From Chitinophagales bacterium (GTDB lineage Bacteria > Bacteroidota > Bacteroidia > Chitinophagales > UBA2359), in contig JAEUUX010000234.1 of the NCBI GenBank assembly GCA_016787295.1, positions 1 through 64,000 on the forward strand: a DNA stretch of 64,000 nucleotides. Direction: 5' to 3'. Below the pieces are notes generated by a model that saw only the letters and a list, made by a program, of their open reading frames with translations, ran no database searches and was not told the DNA's origin. Positions 10,435 to 37,022 of the stretch are shown here, piece by piece. How positions within the stretch are numbered: position 1 is the stretch's first letter; every line of letters begins with the position of its first letter. The position numbers and the translations under genes were made by a program.

Positions 10435-12567
10435 TTATTGATTAGACAATTTAGGCGCTTCGGCTTTGATGTCTTTTCCTAATCTTTGTAGATAAGCAAT
10501 CAAGGCAATAATTTCTTTATCGCTGGCGATTTCGATTTTGTTTTCTGTTTTTAACTTATCTGTAATAGATTTGGCTTGTTTATCGAGGTCTTGGTCGGCA
10601 ATGGCTTCGTAACCGTCAGGATAAGGCACGCCCAATTGTCGCATGGCATGGATTTTGGAACGTGTTGTTACTTTGTCGATGCTATTTTCAAACAAAGACG
10701 GATAAGATGGCATGATGGAGCCAGGAGCCATAGAAGTCGGGTCTAACATGTGGTTAAAGTGCCAACTATCACCATATTTGCCTCCGATACGAGCGAGGTC
10801 GGGTCCTGTTCTCTTACTGCCCCATTGGAATGGATGGTCATATACAAATTCACCTGCTTTGGAGTATTCGCCATAGCGTGTTACTTCGTAGCGGAACGGA
10901 CGAATCATTTGAGAGTGACAGTTGTAGCAACCTTCACGCACATAGATATCGCGTCCTTGCAGTTCAAGTGGAGTATATGGTTTTACACTTGCAATAGTAG
11001 GCACGTTTTGTTTGATAAGGAAGGTAGGTATCAATTCAATAATGCCACCCAAACCCACAACAATAAGACTTAGTACCAACAACAAAATAGGTTTTCTTTC
11101 AATAAAACTGTGCCAAATACTACCTGCGGGAGCAACATAATTTTTGGCAAGAGGTGCTGCTTGGGCTTCTTCTTCGGCAACAAATTCACCCGATTGTGCT
11201 GTTTTGACAAGGTTATATATCATCACAAACACACCACATAGATAAATAGTACCGCCAATGGCTCTTAAGATATAGAAAGGAATAACGGTTTGAACAACAT
11301 CCATGAATTGGTATTGCAACTGACCTTCGGGAGTGAAAGACGACAGCATGAAATAGGTTCTGAAGGCGCTCCAATACATCGGAATAGCATACAGAATAAT
11401 ACCTAATGTGCCAATCCAGAAGTGTGTGGCAGCCAAAGGACGCGAATATAATTGTGTTTTAAACAATTTGGGAATGAGCCAATACATCATACCAAAGGTC
11501 AAGAAACCATTCCAACCCAAAGCGCCAATATGAACGTGTGCTATCGTCCAGTCGCTATAGTGAGAAATAGCATTGACGTTTTTGAGTGACAACATCGGTC
11601 CTTCAAAAGTACTCATACCATAGCAGGTAACGGCTACTACAAAGAATTTTAAAACAGGATCGGCACGTACCTTGTCCCATGCTCCTCTTAATGTGAATAA
11701 ACCGTTTAGCATACCACCCCAACTGGGCAGAATGAGCATGATGGAAAATACTGTTCCCAACGATTGCGCCCATTCAGGTAAGGCGGTATATAATAGATGG
11801 TGAGGACCTGCCCAGATATATAGAAATATCAAACTCCAAAAGTGGACAATACTTAGTCTGTAGGAATAAACAGGTCGTTCGGCGGCTTTGGGCAGGAAGT
11901 AGTACATCAATCCCAAATAGGGAGTGGTTAAGAAAAATGCTACCGCATTGTGTCCATACCACCATTGTACCAAAGCATCTTGGACACCCGCATACATTGA
12001 GTAACTTTTGAACAAAGTAACGGGAATTTCCAACGAATTGACGATGTGTAGCATGGCAACTGTTACCCAAGAGGCAATGAAAAACCAAATCGCCACATAT
12101 AAGTGTCGTTCGCGTCGAGTTAGGATAGTGCCAAACATATTGATACCAAATATGACCCAAATAAGGGTAATCAAAATGTCAATGGGCCATTCCAATTCGG
12201 CATATTCTTTACCTGTGGTAAATCCTGATAGTAGAGTTACGGCTGCCAAGACAATAATGGTTTGCCAACCCCAGAAGTGAATACGTCCTAATGCTTTGCT
12301 CCACATAGGGGTTTTGAGCAGACGTGGAATAGCATAATACACGGCTGTAAAAATACCATTGCCCACAAAAGCAAAGATAACAGCATTGGTGTGTACGGGT
12401 CTCAATCTGCCAAAGGCTAAATGCGGGAAATACTCGGAAAAATTGAGCGCAGGAAAAGCTAACTGAAAAGCGGCTATTACGCCCAACAACATACCAACTA
12501 CCCCCCAAGTAATGCAGGCAAAGGCAAACATTCGGGCAATCCTGTTGTCGTAATAAAATTTATCCAT
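10435..12567 (-). CDS. ccoNO: Fused cbb3 oxidase subunits I and II (CcoN-CcoO)
   Basis: A 710-aa oxygen-reducing subunit. Residues about 1-490 are CcoN, with heme/CuB ligand regions RPVHTNAVIFAF, WWYGHNAVAFF, AGPHHLLY and AHVHIGALGWNG. After a linker, residues about 510-710 are CcoO, with one helix and a single heme c site GCYNCHSQMIRPF. The fusion is characteristic of Bacteroidota. I start at MDKFYYDNRIARMF (12567). The open frame extends to 12720 but the extra residues overlap ccoS in another frame and carry no conserved signal. Confidence 0.97.
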   Translation of the reverse strand: MDKFYYDNRIARMFAFACITWGVVGMLLGVIAAFQLAFPALNFSEYFPHLAFGRLRPVHTNAVIFAFVGNGIFTAVYYAIPRLLKTPMWSKALGRIHFWGWQTIIVLAAVTLLSGFTTGKEYAELEWPIDILITLIWVIFGINMFGTILTRRERHLYVAIWFFIASWVTVAMLHIVNSLEIPVTLFKSYSMYAGVQDALVQWWYGHNAVAFFLTTPYLGLMYYFLPKAAERPVYSYRLSIVHFWSLIFLYIWAGPHHLLYTALPEWAQSLGTVFSIMLILPSWGGMLNGLFTLRGAWDKVRADPVLKFFVVAVTCYGMSTFEGPMLSLKNVNAISHYSDWTIAHVHIGALGWNGFLTFGMMYWLIPKLFKTQLYSRPLAATHFWIGTLGIILYAIPMYWSAFRTYFMLSSFTPEGQLQYQFMDVVQTVIPFYILRAIGGTIYLCGVFVMIYNLVKTAQSGEFVAEEEAQAAPLAKNYVAPAGSIWHSFIERKPILLLVLSLIVVGLGGIIELIPTFLIKQNVPTIASVKPYTPLELQGRDIYVREGCYNCHSQMIRPFRYEVTRYGEYSKAGEFVYDHPFQWGSKRTGPDLARIGGKYGDSWHFNHMLDPTSMAPGSIMPSYPSLFENSIDKVTTRSKIHAMRQLGVPYPDGYEAIADQDLDKQAKSITDKLKTENKIEIASDKEIIALIAYLQRLGKDIKAEAPKLSNQ

Positions 12568-12598
12568 ATTCTTGTTAATTATTTTGTTTTTAGTACTG

Positions 12599-12745
12599 TT
12601 AGTGCTGGTTGTCGTCAAAAATAGCACGTTGTGCTGGCGTTTCGCTGTCGTCATATTGTCCGCTATCCACGCTCCACCAAAAGGCGAGCAAAAAACCACC
12701 CGCAATACAAAGACTAACACTTAGTAGAATGACGATGACACTCAT
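12599..12745 (-). CDS. ccoS: cbb3 oxidase assembly protein CcoS
   Basis: A short frame translated by hand: 48 residues starting MSVIVILLSVSLCIAGGFL, then AFWWSVDSGQYDD and an ETPAQRAIFDD tail. CcoS proteins have this pattern: one helix, the F(A/x)W-x-GQYDD segment, and a short acidic tail. They are needed for heme/copper insertion into cbb3. It lies between ccoI and ccoNO, the usual place, with a 31-bp gap to ccoNO. Confidence 0.92.
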   Translation of the reverse strand: MSVIVILLSVSLCIAGGFLLAFWWSVDSGQYDDSETPAQRAIFDDNQH

Positions 12746-12845: not shown

Positions 12846-15302
12846 TTATACTTTGGTTGTTGTTGTTGGCGTGTTAATACCATATTTTCGAGCTGCAAAG
12901 TGTGTTAAACTATAGGTTAGTAATACTACCGAAATGGCACTACAAGGCATCAATATCGCCGCAATGAAAGGGGAAAGCGTACCAGTAACAGCATAGCTCA
13001 ACCCAATGAAGTTGTAGACAAAAGAAAAAGCAAAACTAAGATAGATAATAGGTCTGCTGGTTTGAGCAAATGCAATAAATTGGTCTAAGCGGTGCAACTG
13101 ATTAGCAGCCAGAATAGCATCGGAGGCAGGTGTAAATGTGTTGTTATTATCAGCAATTGCCACACCAACAGTAGCCGTCTTCAAGGCAGCGGCATCGTTC
13201 AGTCCGTCGCCTATCATCATGGTAGTTTGGTGCTGTTGGGTTTCTAATTGTTGTATATATTGCCATTTTTGGTCGGGTTGTTGCTCAAACAACATTTCGC
13301 TATCCTTACCGATGTGTCGCTGCAAAGTTGCTTTTTCGGTGGGTTTGTCACCCGATAAAATACTGACCTTAAATTGGCGTTTGAGGCGATGAATAAGGTC
13401 AAAAATGCCATTTCGATAGGTATTAGCAACACTAAATTTGCCGATAATCTGCTGGTCGATGCTTATCCATAATTCGCTGCCGACTGTTGTGGGCTTGAGG
13501 CTATTGGGAGCAATGGTTTCGTTTTTCACAAAAGACTCGCTACCCATTTTATAGTATTGTTCCTCTACCCATGCTTCTATGCCTTTTCCTTGTGTTTCTC
13601 TGAAATGTTGCAAATCGGCGGGACTGGCGGGTGCTAAATAGTTGACAATGGCACGGCTGATAGGGTGCGAACTGTGTTGTAGGATAGCTGCTATGAGCGT
13701 TTTTTGTTCGCTTGCCAAAGTTTGCCCTTCATAGGAGATTTGGTTGTTTTGGCTTTGGGTAAGCGTCCCTGTTTTGTCAAACACTATGCAAACCACCCGA
13801 GACAGTTGGTCGATGACTTGGGCATTTTTGAGATAAAACTGCTGGCGTGTCAAAAGACTGATGATGTTGCCGTTGGTATAAGTGGCTGCGAGGAGCAACG
13901 TACATGGACAAGCAACAATTAAAACAGTGGTTAGGGCGTTCCACGCCAATTGGCTTTGTCCTTGTGTTGTCCAATAAATGGCTGCGGCAGCGCCAATCGC
14001 CAATATCAAATAGGTAAAGTACTTAGCAATAAGGTCTAAGAAATTAGAAGTAGGGGTGTGTGTAGCATTGTCATTGTCTTTGTTCCAGATATTGGTCAAA
14101 TAACTTTGTGCCACACTTTTCAAAGCTACCACCTCGATTAAACCATTGGTTTGCTTGCCACCAGCATAAATAAACTCGCCAATTTGGAGCGAAACGGGAA
14201 GGCTTTCGCCACTCACAAAACTGTAATCTATGGCTGCATTGCCTTTCGAAAGCACAGCATCGACGGGAATAATTTCTTGGTGATGGATTTGGAGTATGTC
14301 GTTAGGGCTTATTTGTTCGATGGGTTTGGGAACAATGCCTTGAGGTGTTTTGACACTAACAGCAATTGGGAAAAAAGACTGGTAGTTGCGGTCAAATCGG
14401 AGGCGTTGTTCTGTTTGGTTTTGTAGCCATCTACCAATAAGCATAAAAAACACAATGCCTGCCAAACTATCTAAATAACCTGTGCCTGTGTGGGTGTAGA
14501 TTTCGTAAAGGCTGCGTCCAAAGGTGATAAGCAAAGCTAAGGCAATCGGAGCATCGATGTTCAGGTAGCGATATTTTAAACTTTTCCATGCCGATACAAA
14601 AAAATCGCTGGCACAATAAAACAAGACCGGAAGCGAGAGCAATACAATAAGATTTTTTAGAAAAAACTGTATCAATGGTTCAACTTCTGTGCCATTGGCA
14701 ACGTATTCGGGCAGGCTCATCATCATAATATTCCCAAAACAAAAACCGGCAACACCAATTTTCAATAAAACTTTTTTTCGGGTTTTTGCTGCTATTTTTT
14801 GACTTTGTTCGGCGGTGTCTTGCAGTTGTAGATGGGGTTCATAGCCTATTTGAGCCAAATTAGATACCAACTGTCGCAAAGAAATTTTGCTGGGGTCAAA
14901 AGTGACAAAGAGTTCTTTTCTCTCAAAATTGACTCTTGCATGTTGTACGCCATGGTTGAGTTGAGGCAGTTTTTCTAAAAGCCACAAGCAACTGCTACAA
15001 TGTATTTGTGGTAAGTAAAAAGTAATTTGCGCGATTTTTCCGTCATTGAACTGTAGCAGTTGTGTTTGTATGTCGGGCAAATCTAAAAAGGCAAATCTTT
15101 CTGTTTGTGTGTCTTGAGGAGGGCTATAACCAGGCGTTTCGTTGAGGTCGTAGTAGGTGCATAGTTGATTTTTGTTGAGTATTTCAAACACTGTTTTACA
15201 ACCATTACAACAGAAGTGTTTGTTTTGGTAGGTGATGTCTTGCTCGTGGCAAGTACTGCCGCAATGATAGCAAATAGTGGTGGTAGATATGCGTGGTGGC
15301 AT
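12846..15302 (-). CDS. ccoI: Copper-translocating P1B-type ATPase CcoI (FixI)
   Basis: An 818-aa inner-membrane pump supplying copper for cbb3 assembly. The N-terminus has a Cys-rich zinc-ribbon-like segment (CYHCGSTCHE, then CCNGCKTVFE at 31-40) and an HMA domain with C102-SS-C105. Eight membrane segments surround SGES (364-367), the CPC copper site (465-467), the phosphorylated Asp509 in DKTGTLT and GDGLNDAAAL near residue 694. The frame is complete with all key residues. Downstream ccoS is 100 bp away. A small helical gene precedes it by 54 bp on the same strand, so the two may be cotranscribed. Confidence 0.96.
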   Translation of the reverse strand: MPPRISTTTICYHCGSTCHEQDITYQNKHFCCNGCKTVFEILNKNQLCTYYDLNETPGYSPPQDTQTERFAFLDLPDIQTQLLQFNDGKIAQITFYLPQIHCSSCLWLLEKLPQLNHGVQHARVNFERKELFVTFDPSKISLRQLVSNLAQIGYEPHLQLQDTAEQSQKIAAKTRKKVLLKIGVAGFCFGNIMMMSLPEYVANGTEVEPLIQFFLKNLIVLLSLPVLFYCASDFFVSAWKSLKYRYLNIDAPIALALLITFGRSLYEIYTHTGTGYLDSLAGIVFFMLIGRWLQNQTEQRLRFDRNYQSFFPIAVSVKTPQGIVPKPIEQISPNDILQIHHQEIIPVDAVLSKGNAAIDYSFVSGESLPVSLQIGEFIYAGGKQTNGLIEVVALKSVAQSYLTNIWNKDNDNATHTPTSNFLDLIAKYFTYLILAIGAAAAIYWTTQGQSQLAWNALTTVLIVACPCTLLLAATYTNGNIISLLTRQQFYLKNAQVIDQLSRVVCIVFDKTGTLTQSQNNQISYEGQTLASEQKTLIAAILQHSSHPISRAIVNYLAPASPADLQHFRETQGKGIEAWVEEQYYKMGSESFVKNETIAPNSLKPTTVGSELWISIDQQIIGKFSVANTYRNGIFDLIHRLKRQFKVSILSGDKPTEKATLQRHIGKDSEMLFEQQPDQKWQYIQQLETQQHQTTMMIGDGLNDAAALKTATVGVAIADNNNTFTPASDAILAANQLHRLDQFIAFAQTSRPIIYLSFAFSFVYNFIGLSYAVTGTLSPFIAAILMPCSAISVVLLTYSLTHFAARKYGINTPTTTTKV

Positions 15303-15905: not shown

Positions 15906-16064
15906 CCGCCTTTAGAAAAAGTTTCCAATGATATTGCTTAGGACAAAACATGATTTTAATCAGGTTTTTCGAGATAATGAAAACAAAGGAAATGTGTTTG
16001 TAGAGCTTTTGGGCATAAATGATTTAACAACATTGTTGCTGTCGTTGTTTTGAGGTGTTTAGTA
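15906..16064. other. Intergenic stretch between pdhB and the ccoI operon
   Basis: With its flanks this is part of a 328-bp gap (15870-16197) that holds only the near-consensus promoter and the pdhB terminator. I see no gene, RNA or repeat in the remainder. Confidence 0.5.
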
Positions 16065-16197: not shown

Positions 16198-17181
16198 CTA
16201 TTTTTTTAGGTACATAACTTCTTTAACAGCTTTGATAATGCGTGTTGGATTGGGCAAAAAGGCACTCACCAAATTGGGAGCATACGATACAGAGGTATCG
16301 GCACCCATAACACGGATAACAGGTGCGTCCATATAATCAAAGGCTCGGCGTTGGATTTGGTAGGTAATTTCGGTGGCAACAGACGCAAAGGGCCACGACT
16401 CTTCGACAACGACCATGCGGTTAGTCTTCTTGACCGATTCTATCAACGTATCATAGTCCATCGGACGAATGGTGCGCAAGTCGATAACTTCGGCTTCGAT
16501 GCCTTCTTCTGCTAAGGTTTTGGCGGCAGACAGTGCCACTTTCACCATTTTGTTAAATGTCACAAGGGTTACATCGGTGCCTTGTCGTTTCACGTCGGCT
16601 TTGCCAATTGGAATGAGGTATTCTTCTTCGGGAACATCGCCTTCGACTCCATATTCCACTTCCGATTCCATGAACATGATGGGGTTTTCATCACGAATGG
16701 CAGATTTCAACAAACCTTTGGCATCATAGGGAGTTGCAGTAGAAATAACTTTTATGCCGGGTGTGTTGGCTAACCAACTTTCAAAGGATTGGGAGTGTTG
16801 TGCGCCCAACTGCCCTGCCACACCCGAAGGACCACGAAAAACAATGGGACAGCCAAATTGTCCGCCCGACATGGAACGCACTTTTGCTGCTGAGTTGATG
16901 ATTTGGTCCCATGCCAATATGGAAAAGTTCCAAGTCATAAACTCGATAATGGGTCTAAGTCCGTTCATAGCAGCGCCAACGCCTATGCCCGCAAAACCAA
17001 GTTCGGTGATAGGGGTATCAATAACACGTTGGCTACCAAATTCTGCCAACATGCCTTTGCTCACTTTGTAGGCACCATTGTATTCTGCCACTTCTTCGCC
17101 CATCAAAAAAACACGTGGGTCGCGACGCATTTCTTCGGTCATGGCTTCGCGCAAAGCATCGCGCAAGGTAATTAGTCTCAT
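16198..17181 (-). CDS. pdhB: Pyruvate dehydrogenase E1 component, beta subunit
   Basis: A 327-aa partner of E1-alpha in the pyruvate dehydrogenase complex (thiamine diphosphate-dependent decarboxylation of pyruvate). Typical segments are MRLITLRDALREAMTEEM, FLMGEEVAEYNGAYKVS, DTPITELGFAGIGVGAA, GPSGVAGQLGAQHSQ and VEESWPFASVATEI. Length and motifs match alpha-ketoacid dehydrogenase beta subunits. No E1-alpha gene is adjacent, so pdhA is encoded elsewhere, which is common in Bacteroidota. It has its own promoter (17227-17262) and terminator. Confidence 0.95.
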   Translation of the reverse strand: MRLITLRDALREAMTEEMRRDPRVFLMGEEVAEYNGAYKVSKGMLAEFGSQRVIDTPITELGFAGIGVGAAMNGLRPIIEFMTWNFSILAWDQIINSAAKVRSMSGGQFGCPIVFRGPSGVAGQLGAQHSQSFESWLANTPGIKVISTATPYDAKGLLKSAIRDENPIMFMESEVEYGVEGDVPEEEYLIPIGKADVKRQGTDVTLVTFNKMVKVALSAAKTLAEEGIEAEVIDLRTIRPMDYDTLIESVKKTNRMVVVEESWPFASVATEITYQIQRRAFDYMDAPVIRVMGADTSVSYAPNLVSAFLPNPTRIIKAVKEVMYLKK

Positions 17182-33136: not shown

Positions 33137-33754
33137 ATGTCTTACTCCAAGTTTAACCTAAACAATATACAAACAAAGTTAGGACTCAACGTGGTGAGAA
33201 AACCTATATTTGATGGCGCAAATATCGAATCGATTCCGTTATCAGAGTGGTTGACTACAAGCTTGAGTATGGGCGAGCAAATATCATTGGTCAGCGAAAA
33301 AGCGCGAAGTGAATTCATTGTTACGCCAATATTATTGGAAGTATTGCACAAAAATAATTACAACTTTTCGCTCTTATCAGGGATTAATTTAGATATTGAC
33401 CCTGCAAAAGGCTTGATAGGAGAATGTGATTTTATCATTGCAGCCAAAGCCCACATTTTGTCGATACAAAGCCCTATATTAGCCATTATAGAGGCAAAAG
33501 ACAATGATATTCAGCGGGGAATACCACAATGTGCTGCCCAAATGTATGCAGCTCGGATTTGTAATGAAGAAAATAATACCTCTCAAACAACTATTTGGGG
33601 TTGCGTAACAACAGGAACAGATTGGCAATTTTTGTGCTTAATCGACCATACTATCTATGTGCATTTGCAATTATATTATCTGAATCAAGTGCCAGAATTA
33701 TTGGGCATATTGCAATATATTGTAGATAGTTCTATTGTTGTTACAAATGATTAG
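33137..33754 (+). CDS. PD-(D/E)XK nuclease-like orphan protein (second family member)
   Basis: A 205-aa cytoplasmic protein with the core motif Asp98 in GECDFIIAA, Glu119-Ala-Lys121 in AIIEAKDND, Gln131 and a following QMYAARIC helix, plus Glu60 upstream. This is a good PD-(D/E)XK arrangement, of the sort seen in HsdR N-terminal domains. The C-terminal WGCVTTGTDWQFLCL parallels the C-terminus of the protein at 24127-24777. No partner restriction or modification gene adjoins. It starts 42 bp after dnaJ but is AT-richer and is probably a later acquisition at the edge of the accessory island. Confidence 0.65.
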   Translation: MSYSKFNLNNIQTKLGLNVVRKPIFDGANIESIPLSEWLTTSLSMGEQISLVSEKARSEFIVTPILLEVLHKNNYNFSLLSGINLDIDPAKGLIGECDFIIAAKAHILSIQSPILAIIEAKDNDIQRGIPQCAAQMYAARICNEENNTSQTTIWGCVTTGTDWQFLCLIDHTIYVHLQLYYLNQVPELLGILQYIVDSSIVVTND

Positions 33755-33920: not shown

Positions 33921-34559
33921 ATGCTAAAAAATATTGTCGACTCTGTACTCTCTAATTTTAAAAGTATGAGCAAGAAAGAACAAGCACAAAAAGTTGTGCA
34001 AAACCACATGTTGTTTGCGGGTGGTGCGGGTTTGGTGCCGCTTCCCGGTCTCGATTTGATTGCTGTTACGGCGGTTCAGATTGAGATGTTGCGCCAATTG
34101 TCTAACCTTTATGGCAAGGACTTTTCGGAAAACCAAATCAAAAACTATATTTCTGCCATTACAGGCGGCTTGGTGGCACGCGCTGGTGCTTCTGCCCTCA
34201 AAGGTATTCCGGTAGTGGGGCAGTTGTTGGGTAGCGCTACCATGGCAATTACATCGAGTGCAACAACTTATGCCATTGGACAAGTGTTTGTGACACACTA
34301 CGAAAGTGGCGGGTCTAACGAAGATTTCGATGTAGAAACTTTTAAAAAAATGTATGAGCAAGAGTTGAAGAAAGGCAAAGAAATCGCCAAAAAACAACAG
34401 CAACCAAACAAAAGTGCTAGTACAGTTGTTAACGAAGACAACAATGGCGGTACAGATATCTATGAACAAATTCGCCGTTTGGGAGAACTGAAAGAAAAAG
34501 GATTGCTCTCCGACGAAGAATTTGCCGCCGCCAAAGCCAAATTGTTGAGTAATTTATAA
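33921..34559 (+). CDS. DUF697 membrane-associated protein with C-terminal SHOCT domain
   Basis: A 212-aa protein. The DUF697 region (about 25-135) shows PLPGLDLIAVTAVQIEML, ALKGIPVVGQLLGSAT and AIGQVFVTHYESGG, with hydrophobic segments that could insert in a membrane. A charged linker follows. The last 35 residues are a SHOCT domain (GELKEKGLLSDEEFAAAKAK), a short helical hairpin seen at the ends of many oligomeric or membrane proteins. The last 11 codons plus stop are duplicated at 36636-36670 beyond the ATPase/TOPRIM cassette. In the sampled line 34141-34200, 32 of 60 bases are G or C, much higher than the cassette. Confidence 0.85.
   Translation: MLKNIVDSVLSNFKSMSKKEQAQKVVQNHMLFAGGAGLVPLPGLDLIAVTAVQIEMLRQLSNLYGKDFSENQIKNYISAITGGLVARAGASALKGIPVVGQLLGSATMAITSSATTYAIGQVFVTHYESGGSNEDFDVETFKKMYEQELKKGKEIAKKQQQPNKSASTVVNEDNNGGTDIYEQIRRLGELKEKGLLSDEEFAAAKAKLLSNL
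34521..34555 (+). repeat. 35-bp direct repeat, left copy (3' end of the DUF697-SHOCT gene)
   Basis: Begins TTTGCCGCCGCC and ends GTTGAGTAATTT. It is identical in all 35 positions to 36636-36670. Here it is followed by ATAAG, giving the host gene stop TTA TAA. It marks the left boundary of the ATPase/TOPRIM cassette. The repeats are 2115 bp apart start to start. Confidence 0.95.
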
Positions 34560-34597
34560 GTTTTAAGTGTGGAATAATAAAATTTAATCAAAGTTGG

Positions 34598-34646
34598 GTT
34601 TACGGCTGTAGGTATTTTTATAAGTAATATATTTACAGCCGTAAAC
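34598..34646. repeat. Perfect 13-bp inverted repeat near the left end of the cassette
   Basis: GTTTACGGCTGTA (34598-34610) and its exact complement (34634-34646) enclose 23 AT-rich bases. No T-run follows on either strand. It could be a terminator-like hairpin for the DUF697 gene, a regulatory hairpin ahead of the ATPase gene, or a recombination site. Confidence 0.7.
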
Positions 34647-34788
34647 TATAAAACTTGCGATAATAAATCTTTCCAATCTTTATTTGGACCACGACAAAAT
34701 AATAAAAAAACAAATGATGCGTAATCTATATATTCAAGCCTTCGTGTTTTTTAGGTGTGTCAAATAGTCAAAAATATTATTTTAAACA

Positions 34789-35898
34789 ATGATAAAGTCA
34801 ATAAGTATCAATAATTTCCGATGCTATGGAAATACCACAATTGAAGGTTTTAAAAGAATTAACCTTATAGGAGGTTTAAATAATTCTGGCAAAACAATAT
34901 TATTAGAAGCATTGCTTCTTAGTTGTTCTCCCACAACAGCAAGTATTTCGCTTTTGAAACAATTGCGTGACAACGATTCAGACATAAAGGAACTTCCTGA
35001 ATATGCTTGGAGCAGTTTTTTTCTTAATCAGATTATTGACAAACGCATTGAAATAAACACAATATATGATGATGGAAAGAGTATTGCGATAGTTATGGAA
35101 TGTAACGAAAAAACAGATGAATTTGAGCAATTAGATGAAAAAGATTTAGAAGAAACCAATGACATTCAAACTATATTTAACGATTTTGTTATAGACGAAA
35201 GAGTGCTAAAGTCGGTCTTACATATCAAATACAAAAACAGGATCGATGCGAAAGAGATTCCTATATTGACCCTTATGGCTCATAAAAAAGGTACCACTGC
35301 CAAAGAATTAAATGTACCATTCACATTTGCCACCTATATTCCTGCTTCTATGAAGCGAAAATCTGCTATTTTGGCAAGAGAATATGGCATTGCTGAAAGA
35401 AAAGGCAAAGAAAAGCAAGTTTTAGAAGCTCTTCAAATTATTGATAATAATATCGAAACAATCCGAGTTTCGGTAATCGGAGGCGTGCATCTTGAGGTTA
35501 AAAAGAAAAATGGCTCATTTATGCCGATTTCTTTGTATGGAGATGCTATCAACAGAATACTAAACATGATATTATCGCTAATTAACAATGGCAAGAAAAC
35601 TGTTTTGTTGATAGATGAAATAGAAAATGGAATCCACTATAAAAATCATCAAAGTTTTTGGCGTTTCCTTTTTCAATTAGCCTCCAAAGAACATTTTGAT
35701 GTTCAAATTTTCGCCACTACACACAGTATAGAGATGATGGAAGCGTTTGTAAAAACATCTTTCGAATTTCCTGACGAATGTGCATATATCGAACTGTATT
35801 ATAGAGAATTAACCAACGAAATTGACTATAATATACATAATATGTCAACTTTAGCTTTTGAACTTTCTAATAAAATGGCAGTAAGGGGGGAACAATAA
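34789..35898 (+). CDS. OLD-like AAA ATPase of a two-gene module
   Basis: A 369-aa ABC/SMC-type ATPase of the OLD-like (AAA_15/AAA_21) group. Starts MIKSISINNFRCYGN. Walker A is GLNNSGKT (29-36), with a signature-like SLYGDAINRIL (248-258), Walker B LLIDEIENG (D276, E277) and the H-loop THSIEMMEAF (H312). The long insert between Walker A and the signature is Asp/Glu-rich. There is no TOPRIM domain in this protein: it is in the next gene, which starts 1 bp after the stop. Such split ATPase/TOPRIM pairs include the PARIS anti-phage system. Sequence composition is low GC (17 of 60 in 34861-34920). A defence role is inferred from architecture and context. Confidence 0.85.
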   Translation: MIKSISINNFRCYGNTTIEGFKRINLIGGLNNSGKTILLEALLLSCSPTTASISLLKQLRDNDSDIKELPEYAWSSFFLNQIIDKRIEINTIYDDGKSIAIVMECNEKTDEFEQLDEKDLEETNDIQTIFNDFVIDERVLKSVLHIKYKNRIDAKEIPILTLMAHKKGTTAKELNVPFTFATYIPASMKRKSAILAREYGIAERKGKEKQVLEALQIIDNNIETIRVSVIGGVHLEVKKKNGSFMPISLYGDAINRILNMILSLINNGKKTVLLIDEIENGIHYKNHQSFWRFLFQLASKEHFDVQIFATTHSIEMMEAFVKTSFEFPDECAYIELYYRELTNEIDYNIHNMSTLAFELSNKMAVRGEQ

Positions 35899-35899
35899 T

Positions 35900-36574
35900 A
35901 TGAAAAATAGTTTAATCGTAGAAAGTAAGAATGATAAATTTTTCGTTCAGGCTGTTATCAAACATTTGGAAATTACCAATACAGAATATGTCAATATTTG
36001 TGATGAAAATTATGAACTTTTGAACGGTTTGAGTCATGACCGTCTTGTTACTGTCTTGGATACTATTAAAAACAAAGCAAAAAAAGAAAATATAGAGCGC
36101 ATAGGTATCATTATAGACCAAGACAAAGCAGATAACAATAGAATCGATTTTGTGAATAATGCTATCAAAGAAGTTTTTGGTGTTCCACAACTTTTTACGA
36201 AAACTGGAGAATTCAAAACGGCACCTATCGATTCGCGCCAAACAATAGATATCGCAACTTATTTTACCAACGTAAATAATGAGGGCGAGTTAGAGACGCT
36301 ATTGAAACAAATTAAAAAAGGAGATTCTGTTTATGCAGATAAATTAGCATGTTGGCAAGATTGTTTGCGAATGGAAAGGAAAGAATTGAAAAAGAAAGAT
36401 TTTGATAAATTGTGGGTGCAATTGTATATTAGATATGACCAATGCAGTAAAAAGGAGCAAAAACAAGCAGATGGAAAATGCAATTTTGAAACGTCTCTAC
36501 TACAAAAAGACATTTGGGATTTTGAACACGAATGTTTGTCTAATTTGAAAAACTTTCTATGTTTATTCAAGTAA
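35900..36574 (+). CDS. TOPRIM-like protein (DUF3226/DUF4435-type) coupled to the ATPase
   Basis: A 224-aa protein starting MKNSLIVESKNDKFFVQAVI. Conserved TOPRIM acidic residues are Glu8 in LIVESKNDKFF and Asp73/Asp75 in GIIIDQDKADNNR, so metal-dependent nuclease or nucleotidyl chemistry is possible. The C-terminal half is Lys-rich and helical. It starts one base after the ATPase stop (TAA T ATG), implying translational coupling and a stoichiometric complex. 16 of 60 bases in 36061-36120 are G or C, far below the flanking genes. Family naming is by motif; whether it is DUF3226 or DUF4435 proper is uncertain. Confidence 0.8.
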   Translation: MKNSLIVESKNDKFFVQAVIKHLEITNTEYVNICDENYELLNGLSHDRLVTVLDTIKNKAKKENIERIGIIIDQDKADNNRIDFVNNAIKEVFGVPQLFTKTGEFKTAPIDSRQTIDIATYFTNVNNEGELETLLKQIKKGDSVYADKLACWQDCLRMERKELKKKDFDKLWVQLYIRYDQCSKKEQKQADGKCNFETSLLQKDIWDFEHECLSNLKNFLCLFK

Positions 36575-36635
36575 TTAGCAAAATTTATTGAAATATTGGT
36601 ATAACATTATTCAAACATTCACCAAAAACTCTCCT

Positions 36636-36670
36636 TTTGCCGCCGCCAAAGCCAAATTGTTGAGTAATTT
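36636..36670 (+). repeat. 35-bp direct repeat, right copy
   Basis: Identical to 34521-34555. It is followed by GTAGA, so if read in the host frame it also ends in a stop (TTG TAG). A CTCTCC at 36629-36634 resembles CTCTCC at 34506-34511 just before the left copy, but with 8 fewer bases between it and the repeat. Beyond that the flanks are unrelated. It has no gene of its own. Confidence 0.95.
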
Positions 36671-36758: not shown

Positions 36759-37022
36759 ATGAATACCATCGTGCGTTATATCACATTAGTAGTTATTGGT
36801 GCCTTATTGGGTACTATCGGTGCATTATTGCTGGCACCAAGTAGCGGACGCAAAACCCGCAAAAAACTTCGCAACCAAGCCAAACGTTGGCAATTGGAAT
36901 TTGAAGCACAAACAGAAAAAGGCTTCGACCGTGTTAACAATTGGAAACAAAGCGTGGAAGACATGGCAGAAGATGCTGCTAAAAACATGAATGGACATCG
37001 CACCAGCGAATTGTATAACTAA
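36759..37022 (+). CDS. YtxH-domain small membrane protein
   Basis: An 87-aa protein with one N-terminal helix (YITLVVIGALLGTIGALLLAP) followed by the basic YtxH signature SSGRKTRKKLRNQAKR and an amphipathic tail. YtxH proteins are envelope-stress-related and often precede small membrane and coiled-coil proteins, as here. The gene is followed by a strong hairpin (37039-37083). Confidence 0.85.
   Translation: MNTIVRYITLVVIGALLGTIGALLLAPSSGRKTRKKLRNQAKRWQLEFEAQTEKGFDRVNNWKQSVEDMAEDAAKNMNGHRTSELYN

Follow-up and report, generated by a model that had tools for sequence, protein, structure and literature searches.

A two-gene segment of a Chitinophagales genome, encoding an ATPase and a TOPRIM protein, lies between two copies of the end of the gene upstream. 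We consider this segment to be probably a horizontally acquired defence cassette that entered behind the DUF697-SHOCT gene and duplicated its end, as one case of a route that is seen at several loci of the same genome. Defence systems turn over fast, and many sit singly in chromosomes without a surrounding mobile element. How such single units arrive becomes a testable question in a genome where six or more ATPase cassettes are bracketed independently of one another. Each bracket gives the borders of the insert to the base, and it predicts both the empty site and the precise loss of the cassette.

The duplicated gene end and its insert

The features of the locus are given below by their positions in the window, i.e. 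the whole 64-kb stretch of DNA that was analysed.

33921-34559, + strand: host (target) gene, DUF697 and SHOCT protein, 212 aa, intact, ending in TTA TAA (Pfam DUF697 2.9e-11, SHOCT 1e-7)
34521-34555, + strand: left repeat copy, the final coding bases of the host gene
34556-34788, + strand: insert leader, presumably with the promoter
34789-35898, + strand: AAA_15/AAA_21 ATPase of AbiLi / PDC-M38A type, 369 aa (PADLOC AbiLi 1e-52, PDC-M38A 5.5e-48)
35900-36574, + strand: DUF3226 TOPRIM-type partner (PDC-M38B), 224 aa (Pfam DUF3226 4e-23, PDC-M38B 3.7e-9)
36636-36670, + strand: right repeat copy, with homology on to the former stop codon as TTG TAG
36759-37022, + strand: YtxH protein, first gene past the insert

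The first-pass annotation had described a 35-bp repeat bracketing an ATPase/TOPRIM insert, and both coordinates and letters are as claimed: 34521-34555 and 36636-36670 form a perfect direct repeat. This pair is the only one in the 64-kb window among exact direct repeats of at least 18 bp spaced by no more than 15 kb, the longest direct repeat in first-order Markov shuffles (n = 10) being 15-16 bp. Allowing up to three mismatches, exactly two copies exist in the 5.42-Mb genome. Beyond the 35 bp, the homology extends on the right as far as the stop codon, interrupted by two A/G differences that are both synonymous, and the copies do continue, as described earlier, into Leu and a stop through different codons (TTA TAA on the left, TTG TAG on the right); similarity ends after the stop codon. 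To the left of the copies CTCTCC alone recurs, beyond an 8-nt gap. The Pfam matches listed above bear out the earlier reading of the host gene as DUF697 and SHOCT. The YtxH gene is the first of a YtxH / 122-aa / 148-aa group, which is also found in relatives, there with no SHOCT gene close by. Directly upstream of the SHOCT gene, at 33137-33754, lies a gene for a PD-DExK-family protein (PADLOC PD_DExK 9e-47); one homologue, at locus L222 of the same genome (12093-12695), itself lies between two copies of a hairpin, and a second one adjoins an ATPase gene in a relative (genome G002, locus L031).

The insert between the repeats measures 2080 bp and has a GC content of 31%, compared with about 40% in its genome surroundings (5 kb on either side: 42.5% left, 38.7% right). 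It codes for the ATPase and the TOPRIM protein only, two intact ORFs with no integrase or transposase, in agreement with the initial description. The leader contains an imperfect hairpin (arms 34598-34618 and 34626-34646). Inspected by eye, the Walker A (GGLNNSGKT) and Walker B (VLLIDEIEN) motifs of the ATPase are intact, as are the TOPRIM Glu (VESKND) and DxD (IIDQDKAD) of the DUF3226 partner. An AbiLi/PDC-M38A ATPase thus adjoins a PDC-M38B / DUF3226 partner, which is the composition of AbiL / PDC-M38. These family models suggest an anti-phage function, in which the ATPase would be the sensor and the TOPRIM protein a nuclease-type effector. The earlier proposal of a minimal mobile defence cassette holds in that the genes lie between two copies of a gene 3' end, have no recombinase of their own and are lower in GC than their surroundings; their mobility is only probable.

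Bracketed cassettes elsewhere in the genome

We sampled 1.34 of the 5.42 Mb of the genome, a fragmented assembly in 296 contigs, with simple gene calling. The 1.14 Mb that were read in stretches contain 14 isolated two-copy repeats, four of which bracket ATPase cassettes (the window, L135, L271 and L272). Further ATPase loci were collected by homology alone, which added L274 and L286. Together with two single-gene cases, the bracketed loci outside the window are:

L135: another DUF3226 pair, downstream of a WG-repeat gene; 53-bp hairpin repeat overlapping the upstream gene's stop codon
L271: PDC-M07 pair behind a cyclomaltodextrinase gene; exact repeat of the gene's last 62 bp, TAA included
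L272: HEC-02 pair behind a 215-aa gene; 50-bp repeat
L274: AbiLi/RloB pair behind the ValRS gene; 39-bp perfect copy of the presumed ValRS terminator (39/39 identical, loop included)
L286: ATPase/AriB-like pair; hairpin copy as bracket
L265: single-gene case, Rpn/PDDEXK_2 nuclease; 74-bp repeat, 15949-16022 and 17031-17104
L222: single-gene case, PD-DExK protein (12093-12695); repeated hairpin

The inserts share an anatomy of host gene, copy, leader, cargo, stop and copy. In every bracket the left copy coincides with the end of a host gene of the same direction or follows it closely, the cargo has the direction of the upstream gene in all 8 of the 8 cases examined, and at every bracketed locus the GC content of the insert is lower than that of its own flanks. 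A TAnnTTTG box, which we take to be the Bacteroidetes -7 element, is present in 7/8 leaders vs. 0.87 expected from shuffles, the window leader being without an exact box. The repeats are 35 bp long in the window and 39-62 bp at the other five ATPase cassettes, with five cassette types in all. Between the repeats of any two cassettes, shared words are at most 8 bp long, and no common core, common insert ends or terminal inverted repeats were found among the bracketed inserts. The hairpin copies of L135 and L222 align better when one is inverted. A dispersed hairpin family was considered as the source of the L135 bracket and dismissed, this hairpin occurring at two places in the genome only. Besides the window, the genome has two AbiL/TOPRIM pairs, of which L135 is bracketed and L136 is not; a further ATPase/DUF3226 remnant, with DUF3226 in two frames, is cut by the contig end at L193 (1-942, contig C23). 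At L265, a second hairpin pair lies further out (14205 and 17416).

Under one bracket rule for all genes of at least 200 aa, settled after the first cases were known, isolated repeats of 35-62 bp bracket 6/24 testable ATPase genes vs. 10/465 other genes (p = 4e-5). Two of the ten bracketed non-ATPase genes are partners inside the ATPase cassettes; with partners and the window case excluded, the counts are 5/23 vs. 8/463 (p = 1.5e-4). Among the ATPases collected afterwards, 2/19 are bracketed (p = 0.055; from 60 bits upwards, p = 0.014), which gives modest independent confirmation of the enrichment. None of 41 ATPase genes of related genomes is bracketed (p = 0.0016 vs. the studied genome).

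Loci of the AbiL / PDC-M38 / RloAB kind (PADLOC models) have the same cargo, with the TOPRIM partner gene behind that of an AAA_15/AAA_21 ATPase, but in other genomes of the order (about 41 ATPase loci, about 29 of these being DUF3226 pairs) they carry no bracketing repeats. DUF3226 itself occurs in 30 of the order's 398 genomes, with an ATPase gene beside nearly every match inspected. Roughly 30 DUF3226 loci of the order yielded no bracketing repeat, so brackets were discarded as a general property of DUF3226 cassettes. The missing brackets at ATPase loci of other genomes suggest that a bracket reflects entry into the studied genome and not the system as such. Within the family, SHOCT orthologues share about 40% identity and in no case adjoin YtxH, synteny around the SHOCT locus is lost at family level, and the ValRS/TIGR02757-type and amylase neighbourhoods are likewise unconserved. 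No empty-site genome was found among the relatives compared, which are of the same family at closest and have lost synteny, and we therefore infer the insertion from the bracket. As to possible sources, a phage-borne origin of the cassette was rejected, viral contigs holding no DUF3226 relative and phage records two distant ATPase matches only; plasmids gave no DNA match to the cassette.

Possible routes of entry

A gene end duplicated across cargo recalls integration at an attachment site, and the SHOCT gene had at first been read as such a site. A role as a dedicated site, like a tRNA-type att, finds no support: the site is present at a single locus of the genome and the other cassettes use unrelated sequences, and even with three mismatches the 35-bp sequence has no further genomic copy. 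A further 104 SHOCT gene ends, taken from relatives and from other phyla, include no case of duplication across cargo, and the single repeat found among them is a paralogous SHOCT gene. An attachment-site family based on DUF697-SHOCT was consequently abandoned (no further genomic copy, no viral copy, 0/104 other SHOCT ends duplicated). The layout of host gene, copy, cargo and copy is nonetheless that of elements integrated at gene ends, and could be produced by a site-specific recombinase acting in trans on gene 3' ends, with the cassette as a defective or satellite integrative element (CIME-like). We regard this as highly improbable, given six repeats with no common word above 8 bp, inserts with no common ends, a site that has no further copy in the genome and other SHOCT ends that are unused. 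That each of the other five ATPase cassettes has a bracket sequence of its own, unrelated to the rest and without a shared core, argues against any one site-specific recombinase or integrase. The window insert, with its two ORFs, also has no recombinase gene such as an integrase-dependent element would carry, and no terminal inverted repeats like those of a DNA transposon, the longest inverted word shared by its ends being 7 bp.

Campbell-type integration, in which a circle carrying the cassette and the gene end of another strain enters through one crossover within the 35 bp that both have, would account for allelic differences between the copies (TTA TAA vs. TTG TAG) and for homology that ends at the stop codon, as it does in the window and at L271. 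However, the circle must already carry the correct gene end for each unrelated site, loop-identical copies of an intergenic terminator (L274, 39/39) are improbable for a donor that has diverged enough to differ elsewhere, and the hairpin pairs of L135 and L222 are inverted, which together make this route unlikely. The exact copies of intergenic hairpins thus argue against a donor that brings its own allele. The differing stop codons had been taken to mean that the right copy came with the element or has aged, and of these ageing suffices: two differences in about 41 bp fall within the range of the other bracket pairs, which diverge by 0-4%, with one at 8%. The right copy might instead be the last trace of a second, tandemly duplicated SHOCT gene, the rest of which was replaced by the cassette. 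The CTCTCC upstream of it could then be older homology, and the genome does have tandem duplications with decayed ends (L233), but no other part of the SHOCT gene is left on either side and a separate duplication and replacement would be needed for each cassette, behind single-copy genes such as ValRS; we give this reading very little credence. Assembly errors or chance repeats, which the division of a metagenome-type assembly into 296 contigs might bring to mind, hardly come into consideration: the copies differ by point changes and sit inside long contigs, and such artefacts would not predict an enrichment around ATPase genes.

With a site-specific integrase and an own-allele donor both disfavoured, target duplication on entry remains. 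Such an event would probably start with a break or stalled fork at the gene end that is healed by capture of foreign DNA, after which repair synthesis would rejoin a few dozen bases behind its exit point (template switch) or fill a widely staggered break. About 35-41 bp of the host gene end would be duplicated, leaving the gene intact and a spare end on the far side, and the duplicates could later permit clean loss of the cassette by recombination. As a recurrent route, this would bring defence or nuclease cassettes, small in size and rich in AT, to positions behind genes that run the same way, and would copy the gene end or its terminator hairpin. That they lie at gene ends may be a matter of selection, as the host gene stays intact, or of terminator hairpins that are prone to breakage, and the flipped loops would speak for a template switch or for recombination within the palindrome. 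A broader proposal, which we offer tentatively and would not yet rely on, is that a general, recombinase-free capture route puts defence cassettes other than restriction-modification systems behind host genes by copying the gene end or terminator hairpin, the hairpin serving as break or template-switch point (two flipped-loop pairs). The lineage would draw on this route time and again to build up its defences, and by way of the duplicates each cassette would be open to clean loss. At L194, a 60-bp terminator-like hairpin is duplicated around the gene for a 1144-aa secreted FG-GAP protein (10506-10565 and 14116-14175); local hairpin duplication is therefore not limited to defence cargo, which counts against a defence-specific reading.

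Relation to known insertions and further repeats

Insertion with long target duplication is known for restriction-modification genes (Nobusato et al. 2000; Furuta et al. 2010; summarised in PMC3031569, PMC3874152 and PMC1643837). As far as these accounts describe it, the similarity lies in a small selfish or defence unit that has no transposase and is flanked by long, variable direct target repeats; in the genome studied here the repeats are likewise long, direct, present at both borders and variable in length and sequence. They are shorter, at 35-74 bp compared with about 100 bp in the restriction-modification cases of those accounts, and the cargo is not restriction-modification genes but ATPase-based Abi/RloAB/PARIS-like cassettes and single nucleases. 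In addition, the duplicated piece is here a gene's coding end or a terminator hairpin, and several cases occur in one genome, two of them as inverted hairpins. The process appears to work like insertion with long target duplication, extended to ATPase defence cassettes and targeting gene ends or terminator hairpins. With integrative elements at gene 3' ends and CIMEs, the cassettes share a gene end that is duplicated at both borders and a host gene that stays intact; unlike them, they have no integrase, no core common to the sites and a new target sequence each time.

Isolated repeats at gene ends could serve as a search method that flags uncharacterised defence genes, here and in related genomes. 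Several other repeats came to light in the sampled sequence. A weak AT-rich inverted repeat surrounds the gene for a KilA-N protein (PADLOC PDC-S22, 1e-119) at L254 (12193-12227 and 13243-13277), and an 83-bp inverted repeat surrounds an NAD-dependent epimerase gene at L236 (14105-14187 and 15323-15405). Two short contigs end in exact direct repeats, of 139 bp in L217 (1-139 and 3694-3832) and of 55 bp in L231 (1-55 and 3112-3166), and are either small circles or collapsed tandem repeats.
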